NCBI RefSeq assembly: GCF_027858935.1
Contig: NZ_JAQIBU010000208.1
Coordinates: 1 to 39,689, forward strand
DNA: 39,689 nucleotides
Origin: Oleiagrimonas sp.
GTDB lineage: Bacteria; Pseudomonadota; Gammaproteobacteria; Xanthomonadales; Rhodanobacteraceae
Direction of reading: 5' to 3'
Shown here: piece after piece, positions 3,649-39,689 of the stretch
Position numbering within the stretch: the stretch's first letter is position 1
How the letters are laid out: the number at the start of each line of letters is the position of its first letter
Made by a program: the position numbers and the translations under genes
Notes under the pieces: generated by a model
What the model saw: the letters and a program-made list of their open reading frames with translations, nothing else
What the model was told of the DNA's origin: nothing
Databases searched by the model: none

Positions 3649-3655
3649 ATGCGAT

Positions 3656-6924: not shown

Positions 6925-8250
<1,326 letters not shown>

Positions 8251-8340
8251 TTTGCTGGGTAAACCCCCTGCAACCAAGCGCGGAGCAGGTGCCTGCAGAG
8301 CCGATGCGACGAGCCGCCAGCGGCATCTTCGCCAGCACGG

Positions 8341-8375
8341 CACGCGCCCGCAGCATTGCGCCGCAGGGGCGCGTG
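8341..8375. terminator. Candidate bidirectional hairpin between convergent murA and the DUF3108 gene
   Basis: Inverted repeat CACGCGCCC (8341-8349) / GGGCGCGTG (8367-8375), abutting the DUF3108 stop at 8376. Confidence 0.5.
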
Positions 8376-9086: not shown

Positions 9087-9134
9087 GCGGACAGTCTGCG
9101 TGTACGAATCTGAATCGTGGCCGACAAAAACGAC

Positions 9135-9821: not shown

Positions 9822-9825
9822 CGGT

Positions 9826-10863: not shown

Positions 10864-11023
10864 GCGTGCAACCCGGGTCGTCGTGAGGCGGAAGGGCGGG
10901 GTCGCTGTTGCGACTGCGCTGCCCGTTAAAGAGGCCCATGATAGACGTTGCGGCCCCGATTGGGCAGACTTTCAGGCCTGAGTTGCGCCGTTTTGCCTTG
11001 TTTTCAAACGTGTGAGTGTCCCG

Positions 11024-11677: not shown

Positions 11678-11701
11678 GGCACACGGGAGCGGCGGGAAGC
11701 G

Positions 11702-12301: not shown

Positions 12302-13448
12302 CCTCACGCGCCGCTGGCAGGGCATGGCCCTGCTGTTTGCCGTCCTCGTATTGCTGTGGTTGTTGGCCCCGGTGGTGATGCCGTTCGCGATCGCCGCCGG
12401 CTTTGCCTATCTGGGCGACCCGCTGGCCGATCGCCTGGAACGCCTGCACATGAGCCGCACCCTGGCAGTCAGCGTGGTGTTCACCTGCATGACGCTGGTG
12501 CTGGTCGGCATGCTGGTGCTGTTGATTCCCCTGTTGCAGCACCAAGTGACCAACCTCATCAACAACATACCCGGCTATGTGCAATGGCTGCGTACCACGC
12601 TGCTGCCCTGGCTTCGGGAGCACCTGCACCTGAATGCCTCCGCGTTTGACAGCAAGCGCATCGTCGCCGCCCTGAAGGCGCATATCGGCTCGGTCAGCGG
12701 CACGGCAGCGAGCGTGCTCGGCCAGGTTTCGCGCTCCGGGCTGGGGCTGATCGAAAGCATCACCAACCTGGTCCTGATTCCGGTGGTCACGTTCTATCTG
12801 CTGCGCGACTGGGACGTGATGCTGGCGCGCATCGACAGCATGCTCCCGCGTCGCAAGCAGGCGATCATCCGCCGTCTGGCGCACGAGTCGGATCAGGTGC
12901 TGGGGTCGTTCGTGCGCGGTCAGTTGCTGGTGATGCTGGCGCTGGGCGTGTTCTACGGTCTGGGCCTGACGGTGATCGGTATTTCGGTCGGCCCCCTGAT
13001 CGGCATGATCGCTGGGTTGCTGAGTTTCGTGCCCTACCTCGGGTTCATCATCGGCCTCGTGATCAGCCTGATTGCAGCATTGGTCCAGTTCGGAGACTGG
13101 CTGCATGTGCTGCTGGTGCTGCTGGTGTTTGCCATCGGACAGATGCTGGAAGGCTATGTACTGGTGCCGCGCCTGGTCGGCAACAAGATCGGCCTGCATC
13201 CCGTGGCGGTGATCTTCGCCGTGATGGCGGGTGGGCAATTGTTCGGCTTTCTTGGTGTGTTGCTGGCCCTGCCGGCGACCTCGGTGATCATGGTGCTGCT
13301 GCGCTATGGCTACCAGCGCTATCGTGACAGTGACCTGTACGGTGAGCTTCCGCGGCGCATTGATCCGGATCCGGTCGAGACGCCTGCCGAAGCGCGCTCC
13401 GGCACGCACGCCGCGGATCTGGACGACACGGACGAACTGCAATTGTGA
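12291..13448 (+). CDS. AI-2E family transporter (PerM-like)
   Basis: Multi-TM protein with VTFYLLRDWDVMLARIDSMLPRR and GLLSFVPYLGFIIGLVISLIAAL motifs. Confidence 0.9.
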   Translation: MTPDLTRRWQGMALLFAVLVLLWLLAPVVMPFAIAAGFAYLGDPLADRLERLHMSRTLAVSVVFTCMTLVLVGMLVLLIPLLQHQVTNLINNIPGYVQWLRTTLLPWLREHLHLNASAFDSKRIVAALKAHIGSVSGTAASVLGQVSRSGLGLIESITNLVLIPVVTFYLLRDWDVMLARIDSMLPRRKQAIIRRLAHESDQVLGSFVRGQLLVMLALGVFYGLGLTVIGISVGPLIGMIAGLLSFVPYLGFIIGLVISLIAALVQFGDWLHVLLVLLVFAIGQMLEGYVLVPRLVGNKIGLHPVAVIFAVMAGGQLFGFLGVLLALPATSVIMVLLRYGYQRYRDSDLYGELPRRIDPDPVETPAEARSGTHAADLDDTDELQL

Positions 13449-14164
13449 CCCAGCTTCCCCTGGCCCTGCGCTGGCCCCGGCGCCAGCGCTTCGAACATTT
13501 CCATGCAGGCGAAAGCGCCGTGGCCGTGGCCGCGGTGCAGCGTGCCGCGACCGAAGCCGACGCGCCCTGGGTGTTCCTGGCCGGCCCGGCCGCAAGCGGC
13601 AAGACCCATCTGCTGGCTGCTGCTTGCCAGGAGGCCAGCGATGGCGGACGCCGTGTGCAATACCTGCCGCTGGACGCGCTGCGCGGACCGGCGGCCTCGG
13701 CTATCCGCGGCAGCGGTGGCTGCGCCCTTCTGGCGCTGGATGCAGTGGACGCGATATGCGGTGAACTGGAGGCCGAGCATGCGCTTTTCGACCTCTACAA
13801 CCGTAGCCGTGCGGAAGGCATGACGCTGCTTTTTGCTGCGCGCCAGCCACCGGCGCAACTGGCGCTGGCCCTGCCGGACCTGCGCTCAAGGCTGGGTGCA
13901 TGCACCCTGGCGAAGCTGCATCCACTGGGCGAGGCGCAGCGCCGGCATGTGTTGCGCACGCGCGCCCGTGCCCGCGGCATTGAACTGGATGATGCGGTGA
14001 TGGACTGGCTGTTCCTGCATCATGCGCGTGACCTGGGGACCCTGGGCGCATTGCTCGACGATATCGACCGCGCCTCGCTGGCGGCCAAACGCCGCGTCAC
14101 GCTGCCGTTTCTGCGTGAATTGCTGAAACGCGATGAGCCGGATCAGGCGGACGGGCCCGGGTAA
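13445..14164 (+). CDS. hda: DnaA regulatory inactivator Hda
   Basis: N-terminal clamp-binding-like QLPLALRW; Walker A GPAASGKTHLL; DnaA-like AAA fold; after the permease gene. Confidence 0.88.
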   Translation: MTQLPLALRWPRRQRFEHFHAGESAVAVAAVQRAATEADAPWVFLAGPAASGKTHLLAAACQEASDGGRRVQYLPLDALRGPAASAIRGSGGCALLALDAVDAICGELEAEHALFDLYNRSRAEGMTLLFAARQPPAQLALALPDLRSRLGACTLAKLHPLGEAQRRHVLRTRARARGIELDDAVMDWLFLHHARDLGTLGALLDDIDRASLAAKRRVTLPFLRELLKRDEPDQADGPG

Positions 14165-14205
14165 GGCCTGCGGCCGCATCCAGGTTGCGCGGGTGTTGTG
14201 CGAGC

Positions 14206-15009
14206 TCAGGCCTTGAGCAGTATTGGCGGCAGTGTCTCGCCAGCCACGCGCACCATGGCCGGTACCAGGTGGTGATTGGCGGCGATCAGGTTGCCACTTT
14301 CGGGCAGGCCGTCGCGGCCGGAGAAATCGGTGAACGTACCTCCCGCCTCGCGCACCAGCAGGCAGCCGGCCGCCAGGTCCCAGGGCTTGAGGCCGATCTC
14401 GAAGTAGCCATCAAAGCGGCCGGCGGCCGTGTAGGCCAGGTCCAGCGCGGCCGAGCCGGTGCGGCGGATGTCCTCGGCCTGGGTCAGCAGCTTGCGGGTC
14501 ATGTCCAGCTGCGCATCCAGGTGGGCGCGCTGGCGATACGGAAAGCCGGTGGCCAGCATCGCGCCGTCCAGGCTTTCGCGCTTGCCCACGCGCAGGCGGC
14601 GGTCGTTGAGATAGGCGCCGTCGCCCTTGCTGCTGGTGAACAGCTCGTCGCGCAACGGATCGTAGATCACGGCGTACATCGGTTCGCCGTGATCAAGCAT
14701 GGCAATGGAGACGCAAAAGTGCGGGATGCCACGCAGGTAGTTGTGGGTGCCGTCCAGCGGGTCGATGACCCACATCAGTGGCCCCTTGCCGGTCTGCCCG
14801 GATTCCTCGCCGAGGAAGGCATGGCGCGGATAGGCGCGCTTGAGTTCGCGGATGATCTCGGCCTCGGCCGCGCGGTCGACCTCGGAGACGAAATCCATGC
14901 GCTGCTTTTCGACGACATTGACGCTGTCGAGGCGATTCATGTAGCGAAGAATCACGCTACCAGCGGCGCGCGCGGCGCGTACCGCGACATTGACTGCAGG
15001 TCTGGGCAT
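14206..15009 (-). CDS. suhB: Inositol monophosphatase family protein (SuhB-like)
   Basis: DFVSEVDRAAEAEII...FLGEESG...MWVIDPLDGTHNYLRGIPHFCVSIAM...; start at 15009 trimmed from tracked ORF 14206-15264. Confidence 0.93.
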   Translation of the reverse strand: MPRPAVNVAVRAARAAGSVILRYMNRLDSVNVVEKQRMDFVSEVDRAAEAEIIRELKRAYPRHAFLGEESGQTGKGPLMWVIDPLDGTHNYLRGIPHFCVSIAMLDHGEPMYAVIYDPLRDELFTSSKGDGAYLNDRRLRVGKRESLDGAMLATGFPYRQRAHLDAQLDMTRKLLTQAEDIRRTGSAALDLAYTAAGRFDGYFEIGLKPWDLAAGCLLVREAGGTFTDFSGRDGLPESGNLIAANHHLVPAMVRVAGETLPPILLKA

Positions 15010-15139
15010 GGTCGTCCGGGCTGTAAAGAACGGGGGTCGCGACACTGCCGCGAAGGCGGGCAAGCTTAGCAGAGCGGCAGGGGCGCCCCCAAATGTCTGT
15101 AAACTCCGACGTTTCGATCCATGCCACCGAACGATTGCC

Positions 15140-15904
15140 ATGACCGACGACCAAGCCCGCCACCATGTCCGTTTTGTCCTGGTGCGCACCTCGCACCCCG
15201 GCAACATCGGCAGCGCCGCCCGCGCCATTTGCACCATGGGATTCGAGCGCCTGGACCTGGTCACGCCGCAGCGCTTTCCCGATCCGGAGGCCGATGCGCT
15301 GGCGGCCGGTGCCCCGGGCGTGCTGGACGGCGCAGGGGTTCACGGCGACTTGCCGCAGGCGCTGACCGGATGTTCCCTGGCGCTGGGGCTGAGCGCGCGT
15401 CGGCGTGGCGTCACGCTGCCGGAATTGACGCCGCAGGAAGGCGCCCGGCAGGCCTGGCAGGCTGCCAGCGAGGGGCGCGAGGTGGCGTTGGTGTTCGGCA
15501 ACGAGCAGAGCGGCCTGGCCAACGACGAGCTGGCGCATTGCCACGCCATGGTGCGCATTCCCAGCGTCGAGGACTACAGCTCACTGAACCTGGCCCAGGC
15601 GGTGCAGGTGGTGGCTTACGAGCTGCGCCTGGCCATGCTCCATGGGGTCGATGTCGAGATGCCGAAGCCGGGCGATCCGCCCGCAAATCTGGATCAGATG
15701 GAGCAGTTCTTCATGCACCTGACCCAGGCGCTGGAGGATATCCAGTTCCACAAGGGGCGTTCGCCGCGCACGATCGAGTTGCGACTGCGCAAGCTTTTCC
15801 TGCGCGCCCGTCCCGATCAGCGCGAGCTGCGCATCCTGCACGGCATCCTGGCCGAGGCGCAGCGCGTGCAGCGGAAACTGGAAAAGGCATTGGCCGGCGA
15901 CTGA
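15140..15904 (+). CDS. trmJ: tRNA (cytidine/uridine-2'-O-)-methyltransferase TrmJ
   Basis: VRFVLVRTSHPGNIGSAARAICTMGFERLDLV...VALVFGNEQSGLANDELAHCHAMVRIPS...YSSLNLAQAVQVVAYELR (SPOUT family). Start trimmed to 15140. Confidence 0.94.
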   Translation: MTDDQARHHVRFVLVRTSHPGNIGSAARAICTMGFERLDLVTPQRFPDPEADALAAGAPGVLDGAGVHGDLPQALTGCSLALGLSARRRGVTLPELTPQEGARQAWQAASEGREVALVFGNEQSGLANDELAHCHAMVRIPSVEDYSSLNLAQAVQVVAYELRLAMLHGVDVEMPKPGDPPANLDQMEQFFMHLTQALEDIQFHKGRSPRTIELRLRKLFLRARPDQRELRILHGILAEAQRVQRKLEKALAGD

Positions 15905-15913
15905 GGCGCCGGT

Positions 15914-16507
15914 TCAGAACAACTGCATCAAGGCGCTCAGTACGCTCTTGCTCAATACCACCGTGAGCACGATGGTGGCCAACGATACCAGCCACAGGCC
16001 CAGGAGCAGGGCGCCGTCCTGTTCGATCAGGGCCATCGCATAGGCCAGCATCAACATGCCGAACAGATAGTTGGTGAACGGAATCGGCAGGGCCAGCAAG
16101 AATCCCATCAAGGTCAGCAGCAGCCCGGTGAAAAGGCTGGCGCAGCCGCGGGTGAGCACGCGCATGCGTGGACGGCACAGGTGTTCCAGGCGGCGCAGAA
16201 GCGGCAGGGTACGCTCCAGGAAGCGCTGGACCGACGTGCGTCGCAGCGGTCGATGGCGCAGCCGTGCAGGCACCCAGGGATAGCGCATGCCGATCAGCAT
16301 CTGCAGCCCGAGCACGATGATCATGCTGCCCATGATGCCGCCAATGCCGATCGGTGCAGGAATGAAATTCGGAATCGCCAGCAACAGCAGCACGCAGCCG
16401 AAGGCGCGACCCTGCAACGGAACGAGCAGGGTCTCCAGGGTCAGAAAGGGGCTGTTCCCGGCCGCAAGAGTATCGGTCAGGATCTGCGTCGTGTGTTGTC
16501 TGCGCAT
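15914..16507 (-). CDS. Exopolysaccharide biosynthesis ExoD-like membrane protein
   Basis: LETLLVPLQGRAFGCVLLLLAIPNFIPAPIGIGGIMGSMIIVLGLQMLIG plus TM helices. Confidence 0.82.
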   Translation of the reverse strand: MRRQHTTQILTDTLAAGNSPFLTLETLLVPLQGRAFGCVLLLLAIPNFIPAPIGIGGIMGSMIIVLGLQMLIGMRYPWVPARLRHRPLRRTSVQRFLERTLPLLRRLEHLCRPRMRVLTRGCASLFTGLLLTLMGFLLALPIPFTNYLFGMLMLAYAMALIEQDGALLLGLWLVSLATIVLTVVLSKSVLSALMQLF

Positions 16508-26350: not shown

Positions 26351-27472
26351 ATGAGGCGCCTGATTCTTGCGGGGGGCGGGCATGCGCATCTGCAGGTCAT
26401 GCAATACCTCGGCAGGGCCTCGCTTCCTGGATGGGAAATCGTGTTGCTGTCACCGGATCCGGAGCAGGTCTATTCGGGCATGGTGCCCGGCTGGATGGCC
26501 GGCGAGCACGAGCTTGATGCATGCACGGTGCCGCTGCGACCCCTGGCACAGGCATGCGGCGTGCGTTGGGCCGGTCAGGCGCTGAGCGGCATGGATGCCG
26601 ATCAGCGCTGCGTGTGGCTCGCCAATGGCCGGCGTGTCGGATACGACCTGTTGTCACTCAATACCGGCGCGGCCACCGATGCGGGGGCCCTTCGCGCAAG
26701 TGGCGATCGCCTGTTGCCGATCAAGCCCCTCGGGGCGTTCAGCCGCCGCTGGACGGATTTTTGTCAAACCCTGTCCAAGCAAACCCGGGCTCCACGCCTG
26801 GTGCTGGTCGGCGGTGGTGCCGGAGGCGTGGAGCTGGCGCTGGCCGCGCGCGAGCGCCTCGGGCCGGCCGCCCGCATCCAGCTGGTGTGCGGACTGGACG
26901 GCGCGGTACCCGGATCTGCACCCAAGGTCCTGCAACGGGTGCGACGCCGGTTGCGCCAGGCCGGCATCGAGGAACTGGACGAAAATGCCGTGGGTGCACC
27001 AGGCGGCATTGCGTTGGACAGCGGCAAGCATCTGGCCGCCGATCTTGTGCTTGCCGCCACCGGCGGCGTGGCCCCGGACTGGCTGGCTGGCTCGCAACTG
27101 GCGCTGGGCGAGGGCGGCTATGCGGCGGTGGATGCGTATCACCGCAGCCTCTCGCATACCGAGGTATGGGCGGTGGGCGATGTCTGTTCGCGGGTCGACA
27201 GGTCGCTGGCCCATTCGGGCGTGCACGCGGTACGGGCGGGTGCCGTGCTTGCCCGCAACCTCCACGCCGCCATGACCGAGGGCCGCTTGCGGCCCTACCG
27301 GCCCCGCGCGTGGTCGCTGTACCTGCTGCGTACGCGCAGCGACCATGCGATCGCGTCCTTTGGCCCGCTGAGCGCCGAAGGCGCCTGGGTGGCCGCCATC
27401 AAGCGCCGCATCGACCGAGGCTTCGTGGCGCGCTTCCAGGTGCCCGATGCCGGGGCTGAAAGCGCATCATGA
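26351..27472 (+). CDS. FAD-dependent pyridine nucleotide-disulphide oxidoreductase-like protein (SelD N-terminal-extension/NDH-2-like)
   Basis: MRRLILAGGGHAHLQVMQYLGRASLPGWEIVLLSPDPEQVYSGMVPGWMAG; second Rossmann VLVGGGAGGVELALAARERLG; VWAVGDVCS FAD motif. Confidence 0.88.
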   Translation: MRRLILAGGGHAHLQVMQYLGRASLPGWEIVLLSPDPEQVYSGMVPGWMAGEHELDACTVPLRPLAQACGVRWAGQALSGMDADQRCVWLANGRRVGYDLLSLNTGAATDAGALRASGDRLLPIKPLGAFSRRWTDFCQTLSKQTRAPRLVLVGGGAGGVELALAARERLGPAARIQLVCGLDGAVPGSAPKVLQRVRRRLRQAGIEELDENAVGAPGGIALDSGKHLAADLVLAATGGVAPDWLAGSQLALGEGGYAAVDAYHRSLSHTEVWAVGDVCSRVDRSLAHSGVHAVRAGAVLARNLHAAMTEGRLRPYRPRAWSLYLLRTRSDHAIASFGPLSAEGAWVAAIKRRIDRGFVARFQVPDAGAESAS

Positions 27473-27630
27473 GGGCGCCCTGCGCAACGCCTTGCGTAGG
27501 CCCGGTGGGTCGCCCCTGGACAGGGATATCCGTCACGCGGCATTTCCGGCGCGCCGCCGGCCGCGGACGTGCCGTGGCATACTCGCCGACGCCTGTTCAT
27601 CCTGGCGCATCCGGGAAATCACGCCTAGTC

Positions 27631-28248
27631 ATGCCTGATCACGCGAATGCGGAAGCCGTTGATGCCCTTTTCCGGAACGATGCATTCGTCGTCGACATCC
27701 GGCGGCAGATGCTGCGTTTTGCCACGTTGCAACTGGGGAATGCGGATCTGGCCGAGGACGCCGTGCAGGAGGCACTGATCGGGGCCATGAAGAATGCCCG
27801 GTCCTTCGCGCGGCGCGCGGCATTCAAGACCTGGGTGTTCGCCATTCTCAAGCACAAGATCGCCGATCAACTGCGCGCCCGCCAACGCCTGGTGCCGGTG
27901 CATCGCCTGCTCGACGACGAGCAGGCGTCGGACGATGAAATCATGGACAGCCTGTTCAAGCGAGGGGGGCCATGGCGACGCGAGCAGCGTCCACAGCACT
28001 GGCGTGAACCCGACGAGGCGATGCAGGACCAGCATTTCTGGGAGACGTTCGAATCGTGTCTCGAGCATTTGCCCGGACGCCAGGCGCGCGCCTTCATGAT
28101 GCGCGAGTTCGTGGGCCTGGAGACGGCTGAAATCTGCCGCGAATTGTCCATCACCGTGACCAACCTCAACGTCACGCTGCATCGCGCGCGACTGCGCCTG
28201 CGCGAATGTCTGGAAAACCACTGGTTTGCCGGGGATCGTCGCTCATGA
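27631..28248 (+). CDS. Sigma-70 family RNA polymerase sigma factor
   Basis: LGNADLAEDAVQEALIGAMKNARSFARRAAFKTWVFAILKHKIADQLRAR; LPGRQARAFMMREFVGLETAEICRELSITVTNLNVTLHRARLRLRECLE. Start trimmed from 27469. Confidence 0.93.
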   Translation: MPDHANAEAVDALFRNDAFVVDIRRQMLRFATLQLGNADLAEDAVQEALIGAMKNARSFARRAAFKTWVFAILKHKIADQLRARQRLVPVHRLLDDEQASDDEIMDSLFKRGGPWRREQRPQHWREPDEAMQDQHFWETFESCLEHLPGRQARAFMMREFVGLETAEICRELSITVTNLNVTLHRARLRLRECLENHWFAGDRRS

Positions 28249-28463: not shown

Positions 28464-28582
28464 GCCGTCGCCACGGCCATCGAGCACGCAGTGTAATCTG
28501 CCCAGGCACTGCCGCGACGAAGGTGTTCCACCTGCCCAGGCCCTGTCCATGTCCCAGCTCCCCCGTTGTTCCCGAACACCCC

Positions 28583-28650
28583 GCCCAGCACCTGCAGCGC
28601 ACGTGCTGGGCCGCGAGGACCGTGTCGGCGCATCTTGCACCGGATGCGCC
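28583..28650 (+). promoter_or_regulatory. Tandem hairpins in the leader of the VTT-FAD fusion gene
   Basis: GCCCAGCAC (28583-28591)/GTGCTGGGC (28603-28611), then GGCGCATC (28627-28634)/GATGCGCC (28643-28650), the latter covering the ATG at 28644. Confidence 0.5.
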
Positions 28651-30806
28651 GCATGAGGCGCTGGCTGGTTCTCGCGTTGCTGGTGGCTGCAGTGATCGCC
28701 TTCTATGCGCTGCATCTGGGCGACCTGTTCAGCCTTTCCGGCGTCCAGCAGGGTCTGGCCCACTGGCGGGCCCTGCAAGCGCAGGCGCCGTACATGAGCG
28801 CGCTGGTGTTCATGGCCGCCTACGTGGTGATGGCCGCGCTGTCGCTGCCGGGTGCCGCCCTGCTGACGCTGGTGGCGGGCGCGCTGTTCGGACTGTGGGA
28901 AGGCACGCTGCTGGTCTCGTTTGCCTCCAGCATCGGGGCCTTGCTGGCCATGCTGACGGCGCGCTATGTCTTGCGCCAACCGGTGCAAAAGCGCTGGGGA
29001 GCACGGCTTGAGCGCATCAACCAGGGCGTGCGCAAGGATGGAGCGTTCTACCTGTTCTCGCTTCGACTGGTGCCGGTGGTGCCCTTCTTTGTGGTCAACC
29101 TGGCCTTCGGGCTCACCCCACTGCGTGCATGGACTTTCTACTGGGTCAGCCAGGTCGGCATGCTTGCGGGGACGTTCGTGTATGTAAATGCCGGCCGTGC
29201 GCTTGGCGACCTGCATAGTCTCTCGGGCATCCTGTCGCTGCCGCTGATCGGCTCATTTGCATTGCTCGCGCTGTTTCCCTGGGGCGCGCGGTGGCTGGTC
29301 GCGCGCCTGCGACTGCGGCGCGTCTACGCCGGTTACCGGCGTCCAGGACGTTTCGACCGGAACCTGATCGTCATTGGTGCCGGCTCGGCTGGCCTGGTGT
29401 CGACCTTCATCGCCCGCACCGTCAAGGCCAAAGTCACCCTGATCGAATCGCACAAGATGGGCGGCGACTGCCTCAACTATGGCTGTGTGCCCAGCAAGGC
29501 ACTGATCCGCAGTGCCCGGCTGGCGCACCAGATGCGGCATGCCGAACGCTACGGGTTGCCCGCCGTCGAGCCGCAGGCCGCTTATCCACAGGTCCTGGCT
29601 CGCGTTCAGCGCGTGATCGGGACGGTGGCGCCGCATGACAGCGTGGAACGCTATACCCAGATGGGCGCCGAGGTCCTGCTGGGTCACGCGCGGGTGGTCG
29701 ATCCATGGACGGTGGAGGTCCGTCTCGAGGACGGACAAACGCGCAGGCTGACCACGCGTGCCATCGTGCTGGCGACCGGCGCCGAACCGGTCGTACCGGA
29801 GATTCCCGGTATCGCCGACAGCGGTTATGTCACCAGCGACACGCTCTGGGAACGACTGGCCGGACTGGACACGCCGCCACGCAGGATCATCGTCCTGGGT
29901 GGCGGTCCGATCGGCTCGGAGCTGTCCCAGGCGCTGGCGCGTCTGGGGTCCGAAGTGACCCAGATCGAACGCGGCACTCGTCTTTTGCAGCGGGAGGATG
30001 AGGAGGTGTCGGCGGCAGCGCGGGCGTTCCTGGAAACGGATGGCGTCCGGGTCCTGACGTCGGCCGAGGCCGTGGCGTGCCACAGCGACACGGTCGGCCA
30101 GCGCCATCTGCGCGTCCACCAGGGGGAACAGGTGCTGGATCTGCCGTTTGACCTGCTGGTTTGCGCCACGGGTCGCAAGGCCCGCCTTGCGGGCTACGGG
30201 CTGGAGGAGCTGGGCATCGAAACCGAGCGCAGCATCGTGACCGACGCGTATCTGCAGACCCGGTTCCCGAATATCCTGGCTGCGGGTGATGCCGCCGGAC
30301 CCTACCAATTTACCCATGTGGCCGCGCATCAGGCCTGGTATGCCACCGTCAACGCCCTGTTTGGCTCCTTCAAGCGTTTTCGCCCCGATTACCGGGTGAT
30401 TCCGTGGACCACGTTCATCGATCCGGAAGTGGCGCGGGTGGGCCTGAACGAGCAGCAGGCACGCGCGCAGGGCGTGGACTACGAGGTGACCCGCTACGAC
30501 CTGGACGACCTGGACCGGGCCATCGCCGATGAGGCCGCACACGGGTTCATCAAGATCCTGACGCCTCCGGGCAAGGACCGGATCCTTGGCGTGACCATCG
30601 TCGGGGCGCACGGCGCGGAGCTGCTGGCCGAATTCGTGCTCGCCATGCGCTGGAAACTGGGTCTGGGCAAGATCCTTTCGACCATCCACACCTATCCGAC
30701 CTTTGCCGAGGCCAACAAGTACGCCGCGGGCGTCTGGCGCAAGGCGCACGCGCCAGAACGGGTCCTGCCGTGGCTGGAACGCTTCCACGCCTGGCGTCGC
30801 CGATAG
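28644..30806 (+). CDS. Fusion of TVP38/TMEM64 (DedA/VTT) membrane domain and FAD-dependent pyridine nucleotide-disulphide oxidoreductase
   Basis: VTT-like N-terminus (SLPGAALLTLVAGALFGLWEGTLLVSFASSIGALLAMLTARYVLR) then LIVIGAGSAGLVSTFIA, GGDCLNYGCVPSKALI redox disulphide, NILAAGDAAGPYQFTHVA and dimerisation domain. Start 28644 or 28653. Confidence 0.93.
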   Translation: MRRMRRWLVLALLVAAVIAFYALHLGDLFSLSGVQQGLAHWRALQAQAPYMSALVFMAAYVVMAALSLPGAALLTLVAGALFGLWEGTLLVSFASSIGALLAMLTARYVLRQPVQKRWGARLERINQGVRKDGAFYLFSLRLVPVVPFFVVNLAFGLTPLRAWTFYWVSQVGMLAGTFVYVNAGRALGDLHSLSGILSLPLIGSFALLALFPWGARWLVARLRLRRVYAGYRRPGRFDRNLIVIGAGSAGLVSTFIARTVKAKVTLIESHKMGGDCLNYGCVPSKALIRSARLAHQMRHAERYGLPAVEPQAAYPQVLARVQRVIGTVAPHDSVERYTQMGAEVLLGHARVVDPWTVEVRLEDGQTRRLTTRAIVLATGAEPVVPEIPGIADSGYVTSDTLWERLAGLDTPPRRIIVLGGGPIGSELSQALARLGSEVTQIERGTRLLQREDEEVSAAARAFLETDGVRVLTSAEAVACHSDTVGQRHLRVHQGEQVLDLPFDLLVCATGRKARLAGYGLEELGIETERSIVTDAYLQTRFPNILAAGDAAGPYQFTHVAAHQAWYATVNALFGSFKRFRPDYRVIPWTTFIDPEVARVGLNEQQARAQGVDYEVTRYDLDDLDRAIADEAAHGFIKILTPPGKDRILGVTIVGAHGAELLAEFVLAMRWKLGLGKILSTIHTYPTFAEANKYAAGVWRKAHAPERVLPWLERFHAWRRR

Positions 30807-30931: not shown

Positions 30932-31043
30932 GGACGCCATGGGGATCCAGAAGCACGATCACCTCGTCGAGGGCTGGGTCTGCATCGGCCCGCTGCATCT
31001 GCCGACCCCCGCCTGCCGTAGGACAGGGTGGGCAATGGCGTCC
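30932..31043 (+). promoter_or_regulatory. Candidate structured 5' leader of the TonB-receptor operon
   Basis: 9-bp long-range repeat GGACGCCAT (30932-30940) / ATGGCGTCC (31035-31043) enclosing a local hairpin TCGGC...GCCGA flanked by GGG/CCC. Confidence 0.35.
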
Positions 31044-31061
31044 ATCCCCACCCACCCATGA
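30939..31061 (+). CDS. Possible 40-aa leader ORF coupled to the TonB receptor start
   Basis: ATG preceded by GAGGGG at 5-nt spacing; MGIQKHDHLVEGWVCIGPLHLPTPACRRTGWAMASIPTHP; TGA overlaps ATG at 31058 (ATGA). Confidence 0.3.
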   Translation: MGIQKHDHLVEGWVCIGPLHLPTPACRRTGWAMASIPTHP

Positions 31062-33529
31062 CCGGTACCTGCATGCCTGACTTCAATCTTCCCATCCATC
31101 GCCTGGCACTGGCGCTGGCCATGAGCATCGTGCCCGCTGCAACGGTCATGGCGAGCGCCACGCATGCGGCAGCGGTGCACGGCGCCGATGGTTCCCGTCA
31201 GGACCCCAAGACGGCCAAGTCGCCGGCGCCGGCAAAGGCGCAGGCCCTGAACGCCATTCGCGTCAACGCGCGAGCCATCGACCAGGATGTGCTGCCTACC
31301 AATGCGCAGGTCACAGGGCCGTTCGGGACCGCCCGAAGCGTGCTTGAAACGCCACGATCGGTGACGCCGATCACCCCCGCCTTGATGCGCGCAGTCGGTT
31401 TCACCAACCTGCGTGACATCATGCGCATCGCCCCGGACACCTACACCTCGACCGACTTCGGCGCACCGAGCCTGCCGGCGATACGCGGTCAGCTGGGCGA
31501 GATCTACGTGGACGGCCTGCGCCAGATCTCGGGCAACAACGGCTTTGGCATCCCGCTGTCGCTCAACGCCATCGAAACCATCAATGTCATCAAGGGCCCG
31601 CCGCCGGTGGTGCTGGGCACCTCGCAGCGCGTGGGCGGGTTCGTCAATCTTCATCTCAAGCGGCCTGATCTTGCGGCCGCGCATGGCAGTGCGCTGCTCG
31701 AGTCCGGCACCTGGCGGCGGCATGACGCACAGCTCGATTATTCGACGCCGATCGTGAAGGGACGCTCAGCCATCCGGGTCAGTGTCAAGGTCAAGCATGA
31801 CGGCAGCTATTACGACTACGCCCACTATCGCAGCCAGGATGCCTACCTGGCCTATCGTCTCAAGCCCGATGCCAGGAGCCTGTTCGACGCCAGTCTCGAG
31901 TACGACCACGTCGACTTCAAGGACATCGCGGGCATCAACCGCCCCACCCAGAACCTGATCGACCACGGACTGTATGTCACGGGACAGGGCGTGCAGCCGA
32001 ATGGATCGAGCGTGCCGGGGCCCTTTGCCCTGGTCGATCCGACCGGCTTGGTGAAGATACCGCGCCACCGTGTACTGACCGATCCGCGCGACGTGGATAC
32101 TGTCCGGACATGGATTGCCCATGCCGATTACCGCCGGCAGCTCGGCGACAACCTGCTGCTGACCAGCACCAACGGCTACCAGCACCTGACCCGCAACGAA
32201 GTGGCCAACAACAGCTTCGTCGAAATCATCAAGGGCGACGACACGGCCGAAAGCCGCACTTCGCTCAGTCGCACGACTTCCGCGGAATGGCTCGGCAAAC
32301 AGGCCACCCAGCAGACCCAGGCCGGCATCGACATCCGCTATGTGCATGTCCTGGGTTTCAGCCAATTTGATACCGAGGCGGACCTGCCCACCGGTCTGAC
32401 CGGCCCGCTCAGCAACCGCCGGATTCCCCTGACGCCCGCACAGAAGGCGCAACTGGTGATGCTGCGTCCCGGTGTGTACGTGTCTCCGGGCGCGCAATAC
32501 CCCCGCGCGGGCCAGCCCAATGGGTACATGATCTCGGACACCACGGACTCGACCAGCTACCAGACCGGTGTGTTTGTGCAGGAAGACCTGCATCCGGATG
32601 CGCGCTGGGACATTCTGCTGGGCGTGCGGAGCGACTGGTACGCCGTATCCGCGCGCGATCCGATCCCCCCCGCCGGCCAGGTTGCGGCGCACGACAGCGC
32701 CCACCACATGCTCAACGATTTCAATGCCAGCGTGACCTATCACCCCACGCCGGCGACGTCGGTGTATCTGGCCGCCAGCACGAGTGGCGCGACCTCCAAC
32801 AGTCTGGGCGGGGGCACTCCACTGGGGGCAGGCAACCGCATTAGTCCGGCCGATTTCGCCAGCAGGAGCCGCTTTGCCGAGATCGGATTCAAGGCCGCAC
32901 CGACCCAGGCCAACTGGTATGCCGATGTTTCACTGTTTTCACAGACCCGCAGCCTGCGCAACCGCAATGGCTCGCTGACCGGCATTCGCAGCCGCGGTCT
33001 GGACGGGCAATGGTTCTACCACGCTGAAAACGGATTTTTTGCCAATGCCGGCTTCAGCGTGCTGGACGCCCGCTATGATCATTCGATCAGCTATCAGGAT
33101 ACGCGACAGGTGCTCGACGCCTTTACCGGCAACCACCCCGGCATCGTGGCCGGAACCGGGGTGGGCGCACCCAATTTCGCGGCCTTTGGCCCCAGCACGC
33201 GGCGGGTGCAGGGGCTGCCCAGCCTGATGGCGTCGTTGCTGACGGGATACCGCTGGAACAGCGGGGTCGGCGCCACCTTTTCGGGCACCTGGACCAACGC
33301 CTTTCCGCTCGATTACCTGGGCACGGTCTGGATCCGCGCGCAGTACCGTCTTGACGCCTCGCTGTCGTACCAGTTCGACGGCGGCCATACCGAAATGCGC
33401 CTGGCGGTGGACAACCTGACCAACCGGAAAAACTGGGCGCCGGTATTCGATGGCGGCTATTTTGGTTCAACCGATGTCTTTCCCACGCTTCCAATCAATC
33501 TGATGGCAAGCTTGCGTTACCGCTTTTGA
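31058..33529 (+). CDS. TonB-dependent outer-membrane receptor
   Basis: Signal peptide, plug domain (VLETPRSVTPITPALMRAVGFTNLRDIMRIAPDTYT...IRGQLGEIYVDGLRQ...INVIKGPPPVVLGTSQRVGGFVNLHLKRP), beta-barrel, C-terminal LMASLRYRF. Alternative starts GTG 31028 or ATG 31073. Confidence 0.93.
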   Translation: MTGTCMPDFNLPIHRLALALAMSIVPAATVMASATHAAAVHGADGSRQDPKTAKSPAPAKAQALNAIRVNARAIDQDVLPTNAQVTGPFGTARSVLETPRSVTPITPALMRAVGFTNLRDIMRIAPDTYTSTDFGAPSLPAIRGQLGEIYVDGLRQISGNNGFGIPLSLNAIETINVIKGPPPVVLGTSQRVGGFVNLHLKRPDLAAAHGSALLESGTWRRHDAQLDYSTPIVKGRSAIRVSVKVKHDGSYYDYAHYRSQDAYLAYRLKPDARSLFDASLEYDHVDFKDIAGINRPTQNLIDHGLYVTGQGVQPNGSSVPGPFALVDPTGLVKIPRHRVLTDPRDVDTVRTWIAHADYRRQLGDNLLLTSTNGYQHLTRNEVANNSFVEIIKGDDTAESRTSLSRTTSAEWLGKQATQQTQAGIDIRYVHVLGFSQFDTEADLPTGLTGPLSNRRIPLTPAQKAQLVMLRPGVYVSPGAQYPRAGQPNGYMISDTTDSTSYQTGVFVQEDLHPDARWDILLGVRSDWYAVSARDPIPPAGQVAAHDSAHHMLNDFNASVTYHPTPATSVYLAASTSGATSNSLGGGTPLGAGNRISPADFASRSRFAEIGFKAAPTQANWYADVSLFSQTRSLRNRNGSLTGIRSRGLDGQWFYHAENGFFANAGFSVLDARYDHSISYQDTRQVLDAFTGNHPGIVAGTGVGAPNFAAFGPSTRRVQGLPSLMASLLTGYRWNSGVGATFSGTWTNAFPLDYLGTVWIRAQYRLDASLSYQFDGGHTEMRLAVDNLTNRKNWAPVFDGGYFGSTDVFPTLPINLMASLRYRF

Positions 33530-33533: not shown

Positions 33534-34757
33534 ATGAAAACATTCATCACCACTGTGCTGGCCATCAGCGTATTCGCGCTGTTCGGGTGCAGCCATCCAG
33601 CCGCGACCGATGCCGGGCCGGACCCGCGACATGTGCCCTGGGCGCAGGTCGTGGCTCGTGCGCGCGGCCAGACGGTGACGATGCAGATGTGGCAGGGTGA
33701 TCCGGCGATCAATGCCTACATGAACGCCTACGTTGCGCCGAAGCTCAAGCATGATTTCGACATCACGCTCGCGTTGGTGCCCGGGCAGGGCGATGCCATC
33801 GTCAACCGGCTGATGACAGAGAAGGAAGCCGGACGTGCCCACAGCGCGGTCGACCTGGTCTGGATCAATGGGCAGACGTTCTATCAGTTGCGGCAGATCC
33901 ACGCCCTGTGGGGGCCGTTCACGCAGGCGCTGCCGAACAACCGCTTGATCGACTGGAGCGACCCGTTCATCGCCTACGACTTCCAGCAGCCCGTGGAGGG
34001 CCGCGAATGTCCGTGGGGCAAGGTGCAGCTTTTGCTGATCACCAACCGCAAGCGCGTGCCCGTCCCGCCGCGCAATCCGGCGCAGCTGGCCCGCTGGATT
34101 CATGCCCATCCGGGGCGCTTCACGTTCGATACCGGCTTCACCGGCATGAGTTTCCTGAAGTCGCTGATGTATGCATTCGCCGACTCGCCCAAGGCGCTGG
34201 ACGGCCCATACAACGCGGCCACGTATGTCCGTCTGCGCCATCGCGTGTTCGACTGGATCCGCTCCGTGCGCAGCGATCTGTGGCGACACGGCAGGACATT
34301 TCCCACCAGCACGGCGCAGATGTACCAGCTGTTCGCCAACGGTGAGATCGACTTTGCCATGAGCTACAACGACGGCGAAGTGGACAACAAGATCGACAGC
34401 GGCCTTTTTCCGGCCAGCGCTTATGCCTTCGTGCTGCACTCGGGCACCTTGCGCAACAGCCATTACATCGGCATCACGGCGGGGTCCGCACACAAGGCGG
34501 CCTCGATGGTGGTCGCCAACTTCCTGATCTCGCCCGCAGCGCAGCTGGAAAAGCTCAAGCCCTCGGTCTGGGGAGATGGAACCGTACTCGACATCGCGCG
34601 CCTGCCGGCAGCCTGGCAGAGCCGTTTCCGCGCGGCCGAACAACGCCGTCACTCGCCGACCAAGGCTTCCATACGTTCCTATGCCCTGCGCGAACCGGCC
34701 CCGGAAGTCATGATCAGGCTGTCGCATGATTTTCGCAGGAGGATCGTGGATGACTAG
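33534..34757 (+). CDS. ABC transporter substrate-binding protein, YnjB family, putative lipoprotein
   Basis: VFALFGCSHP lipobox-like; TVTMQMWQGDPAINAYMNAYVAPKLKHDFDITLALVPGQGDAIVNRLMTEKEAGR...DLVWINGQTFYQLRQ...LWGPFTQALPN. Confidence 0.85.
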   Translation: MKTFITTVLAISVFALFGCSHPAATDAGPDPRHVPWAQVVARARGQTVTMQMWQGDPAINAYMNAYVAPKLKHDFDITLALVPGQGDAIVNRLMTEKEAGRAHSAVDLVWINGQTFYQLRQIHALWGPFTQALPNNRLIDWSDPFIAYDFQQPVEGRECPWGKVQLLLITNRKRVPVPPRNPAQLARWIHAHPGRFTFDTGFTGMSFLKSLMYAFADSPKALDGPYNAATYVRLRHRVFDWIRSVRSDLWRHGRTFPTSTAQMYQLFANGEIDFAMSYNDGEVDNKIDSGLFPASAYAFVLHSGTLRNSHYIGITAGSAHKAASMVVANFLISPAAQLEKLKPSVWGDGTVLDIARLPAAWQSRFRAAEQRRHSPTKASIRSYALREPAPEVMIRLSHDFRRRIVDD

Positions 34758-35616
34758 CGTGCGTCGCCGGCAGCCATGGATCGCGGTTTTCGTGCTGGTC
34801 ACGGTGGTTCCGATCGTGGCCGGACTGGTATTCATGGCGACCTATGCCTCGGGCGGCATCGGCCTGCTCTCGCATGGCTGGACCGACGCCTACTGGCTGC
34901 GCGTGCTGGGCGATGCACGCACCTGGTCCTCGCTGGGATACAGCTTTGCGGTAGGCCTCGTCAGTCTGCTGGTATCGATCCTGGTGGCCTTGGGCGCGCT
35001 CGCGGCGCTGGGGCCGTGGGCCATGCGCCGCCCCTTGTCGTCGTTGTGGTTCGTGCCGCTCACGGCGCCGCCCCTGGTCGCGGCCATCATCAGCGTGGAA
35101 ATGTTCGGCAATGCAGGATGGCTCGCGCGGGTGGCGCATGCCCTGGGCTGGATCCAGAGTCCGGTGGATTTTCCCGACGTGCTGTTCACGGCGTCGGGCC
35201 TGGGCATCATCGTGACCCATGTGGCCCTGGTGGCGCCGTTCCTGGTGCTGCTGTTCGGGCGCCTGGAGCGTCACCTGCGGCTGGATGCGCTGGCCCGCGT
35301 GGCACACACCCTTGGTGCCAGCCGCATGCAGGTGTGGACCCGCGTGCGCATACCGGCCCTGCTGCGCACAGCCGAACCGACCTTGACGGTCTACGGCCTG
35401 GTGCTGGTCGGTGCGTTCGAGATTCCGCTGCTGGTCGGTGCGCAGTCCCCGAGCATGATCTCGGTGTTGATCGAAAGACAGTTCGCGCACTTCGACATCA
35501 CCACCAAACCGGAGGCCTACGCGCTTGCCACGCTGTATGCACTGATCGCGATGAGCCTGCTGCTGGCCTGGTTCGGCTGGCGCGGGACGCGGCGCATGCA
35601 AGGCCACGGCGCATGA
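34750..35616 (+). CDS. ABC transporter permease (YnjC-like, first subunit)
   Basis: TM protein with permease EAA-like segment LDALARVAHTLGASRMQVWTRVRIPALLRT. Confidence 0.88.
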   Translation: MTSVRRRQPWIAVFVLVTVVPIVAGLVFMATYASGGIGLLSHGWTDAYWLRVLGDARTWSSLGYSFAVGLVSLLVSILVALGALAALGPWAMRRPLSSLWFVPLTAPPLVAAIISVEMFGNAGWLARVAHALGWIQSPVDFPDVLFTASGLGIIVTHVALVAPFLVLLFGRLERHLRLDALARVAHTLGASRMQVWTRVRIPALLRTAEPTLTVYGLVLVGAFEIPLLVGAQSPSMISVLIERQFAHFDITTKPEAYALATLYALIAMSLLLAWFGWRGTRRMQGHGA

Positions 35617-36401
35617 CCAGACGCGCGCTCATGCTGGCTGTATCGGTGCTGCTGGTCCTGCCGGTGGTGCTGCTGGCGCTGCTGTCGGTCAGTCGGCACT
35701 GGTCCTGGCCGGTCCTGTTGCCGCATGCATGGCAATGGACCCAATGGCGCGAACTGCTTGCTGGGCAGGCCGATCTTTGCGCGGTGCTGCTGCGTTCGCT
35801 GGGCATTTCGGTCAGCGTGGGCCTGCTGGCCACCGGCCTGGCTTTTCCGACCAGCCGGGCGGTGGCGCGGCATCGTCAGCGCGGCCGGCTCCTGGCCCTG
35901 AGCCATATCCCCTTCGCGCTGTCCCCCGTGGTGCTCGGTGTCGCGCTGTTGTACGGCTTCATGCAGCTGGGGCTTGCCGGGCACATCATCGGCGTGGTCG
36001 CCGCACAACTCATCTTCGCCTATGCCTACGCCGTGATCCTGCTGAGCGGCTTCTGGAACGAGCGCGTGCACGCGCTGGCAGCGCTGGCGGGGACCCTGCA
36101 TGCCAATCGTTGGCAGGTCTGGCGGCACGTCCTGTTCCCGGTGGCGCGACCGATGCTCGGCGTGTGTTTTTTCCAGACCTTCCTGGTGTCGTGGTTCGAC
36201 TATGCGCTGGTGCTCTTGATCGGCGGCGGCCAGGTCACGACGCTGACCATGCGGCTGTATGGCTATTTCGGCTCCGGTGACCTGCGACTGGCTGCGACCT
36301 GCGCGCTGCTGCTGCTGCTGCCACCGCTGGTGGCCCTTGTTGTCCATCATCGGTTGCCGGCCACGGCCGTGGCCGTCCATTTCGAGGTTTCCCGTGAATG
36401 A
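35613..36401 (+). CDS. ABC transporter permease (YnjC-like, second subunit)
   Basis: EAA-like segment VHALAALAGTLHANRWQVWRHVLFPVARPML; ATGA overlap with previous gene. Start trimmed from tracked ORF 34776-36401. Confidence 0.88.
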   Translation: MTRRALMLAVSVLLVLPVVLLALLSVSRHWSWPVLLPHAWQWTQWRELLAGQADLCAVLLRSLGISVSVGLLATGLAFPTSRAVARHRQRGRLLALSHIPFALSPVVLGVALLYGFMQLGLAGHIIGVVAAQLIFAYAYAVILLSGFWNERVHALAALAGTLHANRWQVWRHVLFPVARPMLGVCFFQTFLVSWFDYALVLLIGGGQVTTLTMRLYGYFGSGDLRLAATCALLLLLPPLVALVVHHRLPATAVAVHFEVSRE

Positions 36402-37179
36402 CCTTGTGAACAGTGCGCTGCACGTCGAGGGCCTGTCGGTCGAACTGGGCGGCGCGCGCATCCTCGACGACATCAGCTTCGGCGTCGATCCGGGCACCAC
36501 GCTGGCGATCATTGGAGCCTCCGGTTGCGGCAAGACCACGTTGCTCAAGACGCTGGCGGGCTTGATCGAGCCGATCAGCGGTCGTATCCGCCTTGGGGCC
36601 GCGCAGGTCGAGCACGTGCCCCCGCATCGCCGCGGGATTGTCTACCTGAACCAGGAGCCGCTGCTTTTCCCCCACCTGGACGTGTTCGAGAACGTGGCCT
36701 TTGGCCTGCGTATGCAGCATCTGCCCGAGGCGCAGGTTCGTGCGCGCGTCACCCACATGCTGGTCCAACTGGAGCTGGACGGTCTCGAGCAGCGCTCGCC
36801 ACACGCGCTTTCCGGTGGTCAGCGGCAGCGCGCCGCCTTTGGCCGTGCCTTGATCATCGAGCCGGCGCTGCTGCTGCTGGATGAGCCATTCAGCAGCCTG
36901 GATCCGGCGACCCGGCGGGCCATGCAGGCGCTGTTTCGCCGGATCGCCTCGGGGTTGAACAGCACGGCCTTGTTCGTGACCCACGATCTTCGTGAAACCC
37001 TGACCATGGGCGACCAGGTGGCCATGATGCGTGCCGGTCGGCTGCATACCTATGCCGACCGGGAGGCGTTCTGCCTGGATCCGGCCACCGGCGTCATGCG
37101 CGAAGCGACGTTCTGGCAGGACCTGGCCGTGGGCGCCACCCGCGACGCGCGCCACGACACCGACACCGCGGGGTCCTGA
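36394..37179 (+). CDS. ABC transporter ATP-binding protein (YnjD-like)
   Basis: GTG start at 36394; Walker A IIGASGCGKTTLLKTLAG; LSGGQRQRAAFGRALIIEPALLLLDEPFSSLD; VTHDLRE. Confidence 0.93.
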   Translation: MNDLVNSALHVEGLSVELGGARILDDISFGVDPGTTLAIIGASGCGKTTLLKTLAGLIEPISGRIRLGAAQVEHVPPHRRGIVYLNQEPLLFPHLDVFENVAFGLRMQHLPEAQVRARVTHMLVQLELDGLEQRSPHALSGGQRQRAAFGRALIIEPALLLLDEPFSSLDPATRRAMQALFRRIASGLNSTALFVTHDLRETLTMGDQVAMMRAGRLHTYADREAFCLDPATGVMREATFWQDLAVGATRDARHDTDTAGS

Positions 37180-37183: not shown

Positions 37184-37810
37184 ATGTCCCAACTGCAGGC
37201 CGCCGTGGTCGACAATGGCATCACCGGGCTTGGCGACCACTTCGCCGAGAATCCTGACGTGCACTACCGCTTCGAGCGCGTCGTGCCCGGCTGGCAACCG
37301 ACGTTCGACGAGGACCTGGTGATCGTTCCGAACGGTGCCGATCACGTCGCGCTGCTGCAGGCACGCGATGCCATCCGCGTGGTGCTGGATCGCGGTGGCG
37401 TGGTGATGAACTTCTGTGGCTGTTTCACACCCTGGCTGCCCGGGACCACCTGGGTGCATGACAGCGCGCATCCCAATCGCGAGATGCGCTATCACGTGGT
37501 CGACGACCCCCTGGGCCTGATGCACGGTGTGGACCCCGCGCGCTTGAGCACCGAATCGCACGGCATCCGTGGATGGTGGGCTTGCGGCGGCCTGGTGACC
37601 CGGTATCCGGACCAGGTGGTGCTGGCAGATCCGTGGCAGCGTGCGGTACTGGTGGCCGACCGCCGTTCCACGCCGGGACTGATCATGGCCACGGCCAGTG
37701 GACCGCTCGTACATCCGGACCCCGATGCTGCCGAGGATCAGGGGCCACGCACGCTGTACCGGAACATGCTGCGGGTCGCCGCGCGGCAGCTGGAGTCAGG
37801 TCATGCATGA
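37184..37810 (+). CDS. Uncharacterised protein, possible ThuA/class-I-amidotransferase-like fold (protein 1)
   Basis: LVIVPNGADHVALLQARDAIRVVLDRGGVVMNFCGCFTPWLPGTTWVHDSAHPN; 4-bp gap from ATPase. Fold assignment tentative. Confidence 0.75.
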   Translation: MSQLQAAVVDNGITGLGDHFAENPDVHYRFERVVPGWQPTFDEDLVIVPNGADHVALLQARDAIRVVLDRGGVVMNFCGCFTPWLPGTTWVHDSAHPNREMRYHVVDDPLGLMHGVDPARLSTESHGIRGWWACGGLVTRYPDQVVLADPWQRAVLVADRRSTPGLIMATASGPLVHPDPDAAEDQGPRTLYRNMLRVAARQLESGHA

Positions 37811-38531
37811 ATCCCGGCACGCCCCCGTCGCACTGCTCTTCAACGGGGTGTGGTCGCAGTATGCCGTGGCCACGTCGGCCAAGTACCGGCCCCACCTGGA
37901 CCTGCTGCATGTGCACGACCTGGGCGTCGAGCGCCTGCGTCCCTACCGGGCGCTGATCATTCCCTTCCAGAGCAATCATCACCTGATCGAACCGCAGCGC
38001 GAGGCCCTTCTGGGGTTCCTCGCGCGCGGCCTGCGGGTGGCGGTGTTCGGGGACGCCTCCGCATGGATCGGTGCGAACTGGGCCGATCGACCGGTGGACA
38101 ATTACTGGTGGGCCGAACGGCCGCACGATCCACCGGTGGCCTGGACCGACTTCAGCCATCCGCTGTTTGACGGACTCGGCGCGCGCCAGGCCGGCTGGCA
38201 CCATCACGGCGTGTATCTGGACATCCCGAATCGGGCCCGCGTCCTGCAGCGCAGTCGCGACGGCGAGGTCGTCACCTGGGTGACCCGGGAACATGGCGGA
38301 CACCTGCTCGCCGCGACCTCGGACCCGATCGTCGAACACGGGATCCAGCAGATCCGCCATCTGGATCATTTCGTCGACCGGCTGATCGAGTGGCTGGGTG
38401 GCGGCCGGCCCCATCCGGAGCCGATGGTGCTTGTGCCGGACCAATTTCAGCACCAGGCCATCGCGCCATCCATTGCATCGTCCGCCCGTAGCTTCGCCGC
38501 AACATCCAGGCCCACCGGAGATATCGCATGA
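37803..38531 (+). CDS. Uncharacterised protein, possible ThuA-like fold (protein 2)
   Basis: YRALIIPFQSNHHLIEPQREALLGFLARGLRVAVFGDASAWIGANWADRPVDNYWW; overlaps upstream gene by 8 bp. Confidence 0.75.
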   Translation: MHESRHAPVALLFNGVWSQYAVATSAKYRPHLDLLHVHDLGVERLRPYRALIIPFQSNHHLIEPQREALLGFLARGLRVAVFGDASAWIGANWADRPVDNYWWAERPHDPPVAWTDFSHPLFDGLGARQAGWHHHGVYLDIPNRARVLQRSRDGEVVTWVTREHGGHLLAATSDPIVEHGIQQIRHLDHFVDRLIEWLGGGRPHPEPMVLVPDQFQHQAIAPSIASSARSFAATSRPTGDIA

Positions 38532-39256
38532 GTACGCCCGCCAACAACATCGATCCCGATTTCAGTGACCTCAAGGCCGTCTTTCTCAACTGCACCCTGA
38601 AGCCGACCCCCGAACTTTCGCACACCGAAGGCCTGATCGGCATCGCCCGCAACATCATGCAAAAACATGGCGTGGAAACCCAGCTCATTCGCCCGGTCGA
38701 TCATGACCTGGCCCCGGGGGTGTATCCGGACATGACCGAGCATGGTGCCAAGCACGACGACTGGCCGCCGCTGCTGGAAAAGGTCATGGCCGCCGACATC
38801 CTGGTGCTCGGCACGCCGATCTGGCTGGGCGACAAGTCCTCGGTCTGCTCGCGGGTGATCGAACGTCTATATGCCGCTTCAGGACTGCTCAACGACGCCG
38901 GGCAATATGCCTATTACGGACGCGTGGGCGGTTGCCTGGTCACCGGCAATGAGGATGGGGCCAAACATTGCGCCATGAACATCCTGTATTCGCTGCAGCA
39001 TCTGGGCTACGTGATCCCGCCGCAGGCCGATGCCTGCTGGCTGGGCGAGGCCGGCCCCGGGCCGTCCTATCTGGACCCCGATTCAGGCGGCCCGGAAAAC
39101 GACTTCACCAACCGCAACACCACGTTCATGACCTGGAACCTGATGCACCTGGCGCGCATGCTCAAGCGTGCCGGCGGCATCCCGGCGCACGGCAACCAGC
39201 GCAGTGCCTGGGATGCGGGTGCGCGTTTCGACTTCGAGAATCCGGAATACCGCTAG
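38528..39256 (+). CDS. Flavodoxin-like NAD(P)H-dependent oxidoreductase
   Basis: AVFLNCTLKPTPELSHTEGLIGIARNIMQKHGVETQLIRPVDHDLAPGV...MAADILVLGTPIWLGDKSSVCSRVIERL; ATGA overlap with upstream gene. Confidence 0.87.
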   Translation: MSTPANNIDPDFSDLKAVFLNCTLKPTPELSHTEGLIGIARNIMQKHGVETQLIRPVDHDLAPGVYPDMTEHGAKHDDWPPLLEKVMAADILVLGTPIWLGDKSSVCSRVIERLYAASGLLNDAGQYAYYGRVGGCLVTGNEDGAKHCAMNILYSLQHLGYVIPPQADACWLGEAGPGPSYLDPDSGGPENDFTNRNTTFMTWNLMHLARMLKRAGGIPAHGNQRSAWDAGARFDFENPEYR

Positions 39257-39258: not shown

Positions 39259-39689
39259 TCACTGTGTCTGCAGCGCACGGGTCGCGTGCCGCAGGCGCTG
39301 GACCATGGTGTAGACCATCACCGCGATGAACAATCCGGTCCACAGCACCAGGTGGGCGGCGCCCACGATCATCAGGCTCAGGCAGATGAAGGCCTCGGTC
39401 CGCTCGCCCAGGCCCGGCGCGTAATGGAACGATTTGGCCGAGCTGTTGCGCAGCGCCGCGGCGATCGACAGGAACAGCGACATGGCAACGGCGATGGTGC
39501 CGGCCAGGATCACCAGCCACAGGCGGGCCTCGGGATAGCGCAGTGCCAGCGCCACGATCACCGACAGCTCGACCACGCGATCAAAGGTGATGTCCATGAT
39601 CGCTCCGATCGGGCTGGGCTGCGTCATCCGGGCCAGGGTGCCGTCGGCAGCGTCCAGCAACCCGGACAGCCACAGCAGGATCACCCCCG
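39259..39689 (-). CDS. CDP-alcohol phosphatidyltransferase family protein, YnjF-like (N-terminus cut by window edge)
   Basis: DAADGTLARMTQPSPIGAIMDITFD catalytic motif with a 7-residue AR-to-G spacing; KSFHYAPGLGERTEAFI segment. Confidence 0.87.
   Translation of the reverse strand, partial: GVILLWLSGLLDAADGTLARMTQPSPIGAIMDITFDRVVELSVIVALALRYPEARLWLVILAGTIAVAMSLFLSIAAALRNSSAKSFHYAPGLGERTEAFICLSLMIVGAAHLVLWTGLFIAVMVYTMVQRLRHATRALQTQ

Follow-up and report, generated by a model that had tools for sequence, protein, structure and literature searches.

A 39,689-nucleotide stretch of DNA from Oleiagrimonas sp. (the window) carries two short reading frames directly behind the genes of a YnjBCD-type ABC importer, which raises the question of what their products, here called P1 and P2, are and what they might do for the transporter. 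An earlier note, made from the letters of the window, had described them as a tandem pair of ThuA/GATase-like proteins tied to the importer and overlapping by 8 bp. The overlap is real (common stretch 37803-37810), and both motifs that the note quoted are found in the P1 and P2 sequences. The 4-bp gap between P1 and the stop codon of the ABC ATPase gene (37179), together with the 4-bp overlap between P2 and the following FMN_red gene (38528-39256), gives the region an operon-like packing (Table 1). Neither window protein matches a Pfam or NCBIfam model, and none of the relatives inspected reaches the cut-off of any model in these collections. That P1 and P2 are true genes rather than chance frames is indicated by their homologues, which are adjacent and in the same order across distant taxa.

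Table 1. Predicted genes around P1 and P2 in the window
Feature	Position	Strand	Remarks
ECF-type sigma factor (Sigma70 r2, r4)	27469-28248		Shortly upstream of the TonB receptor
VTT (DedA/YdjX-Z-like) + pyridine-nucleotide-disulphide oxidoreductase fusion	28566-30806	+	Counterpart of E. coli ydjXYZ
TonB-dependent outer-membrane receptor	31028-33529	+	Among solved structures weakly closest to ferripyoverdine-type receptors
YnjB-family substrate-binding protein	33534-34757	+	NF008633, 388 bits against a cut-off of 203; 38% identity to E. coli YnjB
First half-size permease	34726-35616	+	Counterpart of the YnjC N-half, from synteny with E. coli
Second half-size permease	35613-36401	+	BPD_transp_1 detected C-terminally in frame 34776-36401; its start is approximate
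ABC transporter ATPase, YnjD-like	36259-37179	+	37% identity to E. coli YnjD
P1, N-terminal partner	37184-37810	+	208 aa, ATG start; class I GATase-like fold
P2, C-terminal partner	37803-38531	+	242 aa, ATG at 37803; paralogue of P1
FMN_red, flavodoxin-like NADPH-dependent FMN reductase family	38528-39256	+	Overlaps P2 by 4 bp
YnjF-like CDP-alcohol phosphatidyltransferase	39259-39687	-	28% identity; frame leaves the window end

Within the window's own order the module is rare and patchy: of 399 genomes, just two had P2, G054 and that of the window itself. P1 turned up in none of 60 relatives searched. As a query against genome contigs the window P1 returned zero relatives, which we ascribe to the window lineage being too divergent, and the family was reached from the window by way of P2 and a plasmid collection. 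In the plasmid records, tblastn detected P1 directly next to P2 in the haloarchaeon Natribaculum, P2 relatives in Rhizobium, Methylosinus, Paracoccaceae and Paenibacillus whose adjacent hypothetical gene is P1, and a single protein comprising P1 and P2 in Labrenzia. A scan with the Methylosinus P2 gave a set of 77 independent loci from Alpha-, Beta- and Gammaproteobacteria, Paenibacillus, Caryophanon, Pseudonocardia, Rubrobacter and Chloroflexaceae, and homologues overall are distributed over these three proteobacterial classes, Bacillales, Actinomycetota, Chloroflexota and the one haloarchaeon; phages gave no match. At every one of the 77 loci P1 is adjacent or fused to P2, counting one (L087) with just a P1 fragment in frame, and fusions in the order P1 then P2 occur at 16 of them, or 17 cases with that of Labrenzia (L004). 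On a tree built from 88 P1-P2 pairs, in which Natribaculum forms a long branch of unsure placement, the state changes between fused and split at least three times. By these comparisons the window proteins belong to a conserved gene pair that has no name, and lie at its divergent end; we found no description of such a pair in the literature on FmdE with siderophores or TonB, on YnjBCD or on ThuA-like proteins with ABC transporters.

Individual loci show further arrangements. Besides a normal P1-P2 pair, Rhizobium etli (L003) has a reverse-order fusion, P2-like then P1-like, next to a FecBCD importer (3765-5048, minus strand), and Paenibacillus agricola (L060) has three tandem P1-P2 pairs with one Dpp importer (3551-8603). 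On contig C12 of genome G144 (L100) P1 and P2 are separated by an insertion (6204-15944) that comprises YgjP and all parts of a type I restriction-modification system (SWI2/SNF2-HsdR, Fic and a fused HsdM-S), and a second copy of the P1 tail precedes P2, as if the island had entered by recombination at this gene. On contig C91 of the same genome (L101) the C-terminal third of P1 is apparently frameshifted (2669-3382), through either a pseudogene or an assembly error, and P2 is intact.

Aligned as profiles with hhalign, P1 and P2 gave a probability of 99.6 and an E-value of 7.7e-25 over 196 columns, which indicates that the pair arose by duplication and that, at the level of profiles, the two are ancient paralogues. 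The natural fusion of Martelella (L033) was modeled with a pLDDT of 92.7 and a pTM of 0.91, and among solved structures it comes nearest to class I GATase-like proteins (E 1.8e-5 against PDB entry 3fij) and to a related domain of GH42/GH164 enzymes. The window P1 alone gave a weaker model (77.0, compared with 92.7 for the fusion) with a poor N-terminus, and this matched the same fold (2a9v, E 3.1e-5, TM 0.6). Hence the relatedness and the GATase-like fold that the earlier note had seen in the two proteins are borne out, and the predictions did not give them unrelated folds, the outcome that it had named as contrary. Its suggestion of a heteromer has become likely in the light of the 17 natural fusions and the invariable adjacency. 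The high pTM of a model with both domains in one chain fits a fixed placement of one against the other and lends indirect support to a heterodimer in the split forms; from the fusions, the adjacency and this one fusion model we infer that P1 and P2 would associate in this way.

The conserved residues suggest where a functional site might lie. In 94 P2 sequences H133, H135, D174, P175 and G180 are invariant and H119, W102, W103 and W132 nearly so; in P1, D53, Q54, H110, R134 and G135 are nearly invariant and H79 and H170 are frequent. The window P2 keeps H119, W132, H133, H135, D174, P175 and G180, with H178 replaced by Glu, and the P1 of the window lineage keeps D53, with Q54, H79, H110, R134 and D174 replaced. 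The only near relatives of the window pair, two copies in genome G144 that are 53-57% identical to it, show the same retention in P2, including Glu for H178, and the same replacements in P1. Since the P1 of this lineage has lost family residues that P2 has retained, P2 would be the more likely carrier of the main site, if one subunit carries it.

This runs against the division of labor first proposed for the window, in which the Cys-rich motif made P1 the catalytic and P2 the non-catalytic subunit. A Cys-dependent GATase-type P1 draws support from the position of C78, directly after the strand that bears the nucleophile in GATases, and from the presence of C78 and C134 in the G144 copies as well. 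Among 91 other P1 sequences, however, 90 have Gly for C78 and 89 have Arg for C134, and just 4 of 91 P1 relatives have a Cys at or one column away from C78; the equivalent place in P2 is Gly, and C80 occurs in the window alone, being Phe even in the nearest relative, G144. The motif is indeed restricted to the first protein in the window, but it does not hold as a feature of the family: with C78 and C134 limited to three sequences and C80 to one, it is best regarded as a lineage mark and not as the family active site. A GATase Cys nucleophile at the strand-helix elbow was found in neither the P1 nor the P2 family, and in a register set by eye the invariant D174-P175 of P2 appears to coincide with the H-P-E (His-x-Glu) that follows the last core strand in GATases. 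Cys-based catalysis was dropped because the cysteines are not conserved in the family, and we regard it as extremely improbable.

The tie to the transporter, claimed from the window, is seen there as operon linkage and recurs across the family. At least two ABC importer genes lie within 6 kb of the pair, mostly at 0-110 bp, at 65 of the 77 loci, the remaining 12 including some at contig ends or without one component in the search. These importers are of the Fec/Btu (30 loci), Dpp/Nik (30) and Tau (5) types, and a YnjBCD/Pot-type importer accompanies P1-P2 in the window, G144 and Natribaculum. Judged by gene neighborhood, the ABC importers linked to P1-P2 thus belong to four or more unrelated classes, and importer class changes at least eight times on the 88-pair tree. 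To our knowledge, no metal cargo is established for importers of the Tau and YnjBCD types, a point against the metal cargo considered below. A pair that stays constant while unrelated importers are swapped implies that these have a cargo or a chemical step in common. Taken together, the family, the P1-P2 pairing and the importer link appear very nearly secure.

Other companions are fewer. An FmdE-like neighbor is present at 43 of the 77 loci. Its absence from the window and ∼40% of loci weighs against the metal cargo considered below, as does the observation, by inspection, that the FmdE-like proteins of the relatives have few of the metal ligands of FmdE. FmdE relatives mostly adjoin metal-ion transporters (PMC2954224). 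TonB receptors occur in 10 of the 77 loci, HupE (the HupE/UreJ family of Ni/Co permeases) in four, between the importer and P1, and ExbB adjoins one (L063); besides the importer, FmdE, TonB and HupE no other operon gene was recurrent. FMN_red is in no P1-P2 locus other than that of the window, and was dropped as a core part of the module for this reason.

Upstream of the operon, TGATAATNATTATCA Fur boxes with 0-1 mismatches are present at 10 of 10 Bacillales loci (L005, L060, L064, L066, L068, L074, L078, L086, L088 and L089). Weaker, Fur-like boxes were found ahead of TonB in Cupriavidus (L090), G660 (L102) and L075, ahead of Dpp in Devosia (L024), and before L062, and one mononucleotide shuffle of all loci yielded 0 boxes. 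Iron control is therefore often predicted at the relatives' loci, in Bacillales and some proteobacteria, and the promoter of the window operon has no Fur box above background. It is the constancy of the pair together with its metal-related companions (TonB, FecBCD, Nik/Dpp, HupE, FmdE and Fur) that leads to a metal complex as the imported cargo. A metal complex of any kind we consider probable; that the metal is iron and that P1-P2 processes its complex has about even odds.

The companions would also fit a complex of nickel or of cobalt, or else a corrinoid, the iron control in Bacillales then being a metallophore-type co-regulation. Use for Ni/Co is known for ABC importers of the Fec and Dpp/Nik types as well as for HupE and for TonB receptors (PMC7689651, PMC11247825), and the four HupE/UreJ genes between importer and P1 point the same way. 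Rfam models detected no riboswitch on the P1-P2 operons themselves and cobalamin riboswitches by two loci, both on neighboring transcripts: before a divergent TonB receptor gene at L040 (4172-4387) and before a neighboring Dpp-type operon at L079 (11570-11784). The receptor and the importer behind these riboswitches are candidates for cobalt or corrinoid uptake, and HupE together with the riboswitches points to Ni/Co instead of Fe in a subset of loci. Such a cargo for P1-P2 in general is nevertheless unlikely given that most loci have no riboswitch or NikR-like site, that the riboswitches belong to adjacent operons and that the Fur boxes of all 10 Bacillales loci are perfect or near-perfect.

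The Fur boxes also weigh against a cargo related to molybdenum or tungsten, which would account for the FmdE neighbor, named after the Mo/W formylmethanofuran dehydrogenase operon, and for the E. coli slot matching P1-P2, which is filled by ynjE, encoding a molybdopterin-synthase sulfurtransferase. A Fec-type binding protein also matches HI_1472 (3psa), which has a molybdate role, at 50 bits; the match to 4ovk, which is unassigned, is better (183 bits), and TonB receptors are not the usual route of entry for molybdate. We judge a molybdenum or tungsten cargo very unlikely.

A further alternative is that P1 and P2 are a ThuA-like enzyme pair acting on carbohydrates or organic nutrients, such as a sugar derivative or a peptide brought in by the importer, whose class would vary with the organic cargo. 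Dpp- and Tau-type importers do carry many organic compounds, GH42/GH164 domains have the same fold, and a few members show weak ThuA/DUF4159 similarity, with 5 of 123 reaching an E-value of 0.01 against ThuA. The relatives viewed in detail, however, score 15-17 bits against a curated ThuA cut-off of 33.4, which, with the failure of the window proteins to match any Pfam model, does not sustain the ThuA membership that had been proposed for them. A FecBCD importer beside a sugar enzyme would be unexpected, and the Fur boxes, TonB receptors, ExbB and HupE likewise argue for another cargo, making the enzyme pair quite unlikely.

The reading that we favor, at a probability of roughly 0.55, is that P1-P2 is a cytoplasmic heterodimer that handles an imported metal complex, probably of iron, the cargo and the chemistry being what we infer. 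P1 and P2 would be its two paralogous halves, united in a single chain in some species, with a GATase-like fold that appears to have lost the Cys-His-Glu site. Cargo would enter through a TonB receptor and an ABC transporter, or through the ABC transporter alone, and the metal complex, most probably an iron chelate, would be received in the cytoplasm by P1-P2. There a His/Asp/Trp cluster, mainly of P2 (H119, W132-H133-x-H135-G and D174-P175-x-x-H178-H179-G), may bind the complex or its ligand and help in metal release or chelator cleavage, aided in many cases by an FmdE-like protein. In the window, P1-P2 would serve the YnjBCD-type importer, possibly partnered by the adjacent FMN reductase. 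The broader proposal that P1-P2 is an undescribed, general cytoplasmic receiver of metal chelates, with its own non-GATase active site and re-used behind at least four unrelated classes of importer in bacteria and one or more archaea, is tentative and on balance doubtful; if true, it would mark the cargo of orphan importers, YnjBCD included, as metal complexes. The pair offers a handle on the substrates of many such importers, YnjBCD still being putative in the E. coli annotation, and proteins annotated as hypothetical become a family worth naming, with candidate residues and with putatively Fur-controlled examples in culturable Paenibacillus.

Compared with known systems, P1 and P2 resemble the class I GATase superfamily (2a9v, 3fij lin1909 and 2gk3 STM3548) in fold, strand order and a domain of ∼200 residues, but differ in the missing elbow Cys nucleophile, in apparently having D-P for H-P-E (by eye) and in forming an apparently obligate pair of two paralogous domains. 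ThuA (PF06283), DUF4159 (PF13709) and DUF4350 (PF14258), which have weak profile similarity to a few relatives, share with P1-P2 a similar HPL...W..H...G...DP layout (by eye), although ThuA has a sugar-dehydrogenase context that the P1-P2 loci lack. The FmdE-like neighbors fall just or well under the Pfam cut-off of the FmdE family (PF02663). The closest parallel in gene order is the E. coli ydjXYZ-ynjABCD operon, which is activated by FNR and whose function is not known (PMC3688515). In E. coli K-12 the order is ydjX-ydjY-ydjZ-ynjA-B-C-D-E with ynjF reversed, and in the window it is the VTT fusion, TonB, YnjB, two YnjC-like permeases, YnjD-like, P1, P2, FMN_red and YnjF reversed. The two clusters thus agree in the succession of VTT, YnjB, YnjC, YnjD and reversed YnjF, whereas the window has an extra TonB receptor, YnjC as two permeases, and P1-P2-FMN_red where E. 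coli has ynjE, the matching gene order indicating that P1-P2 holds the place of ynjE.
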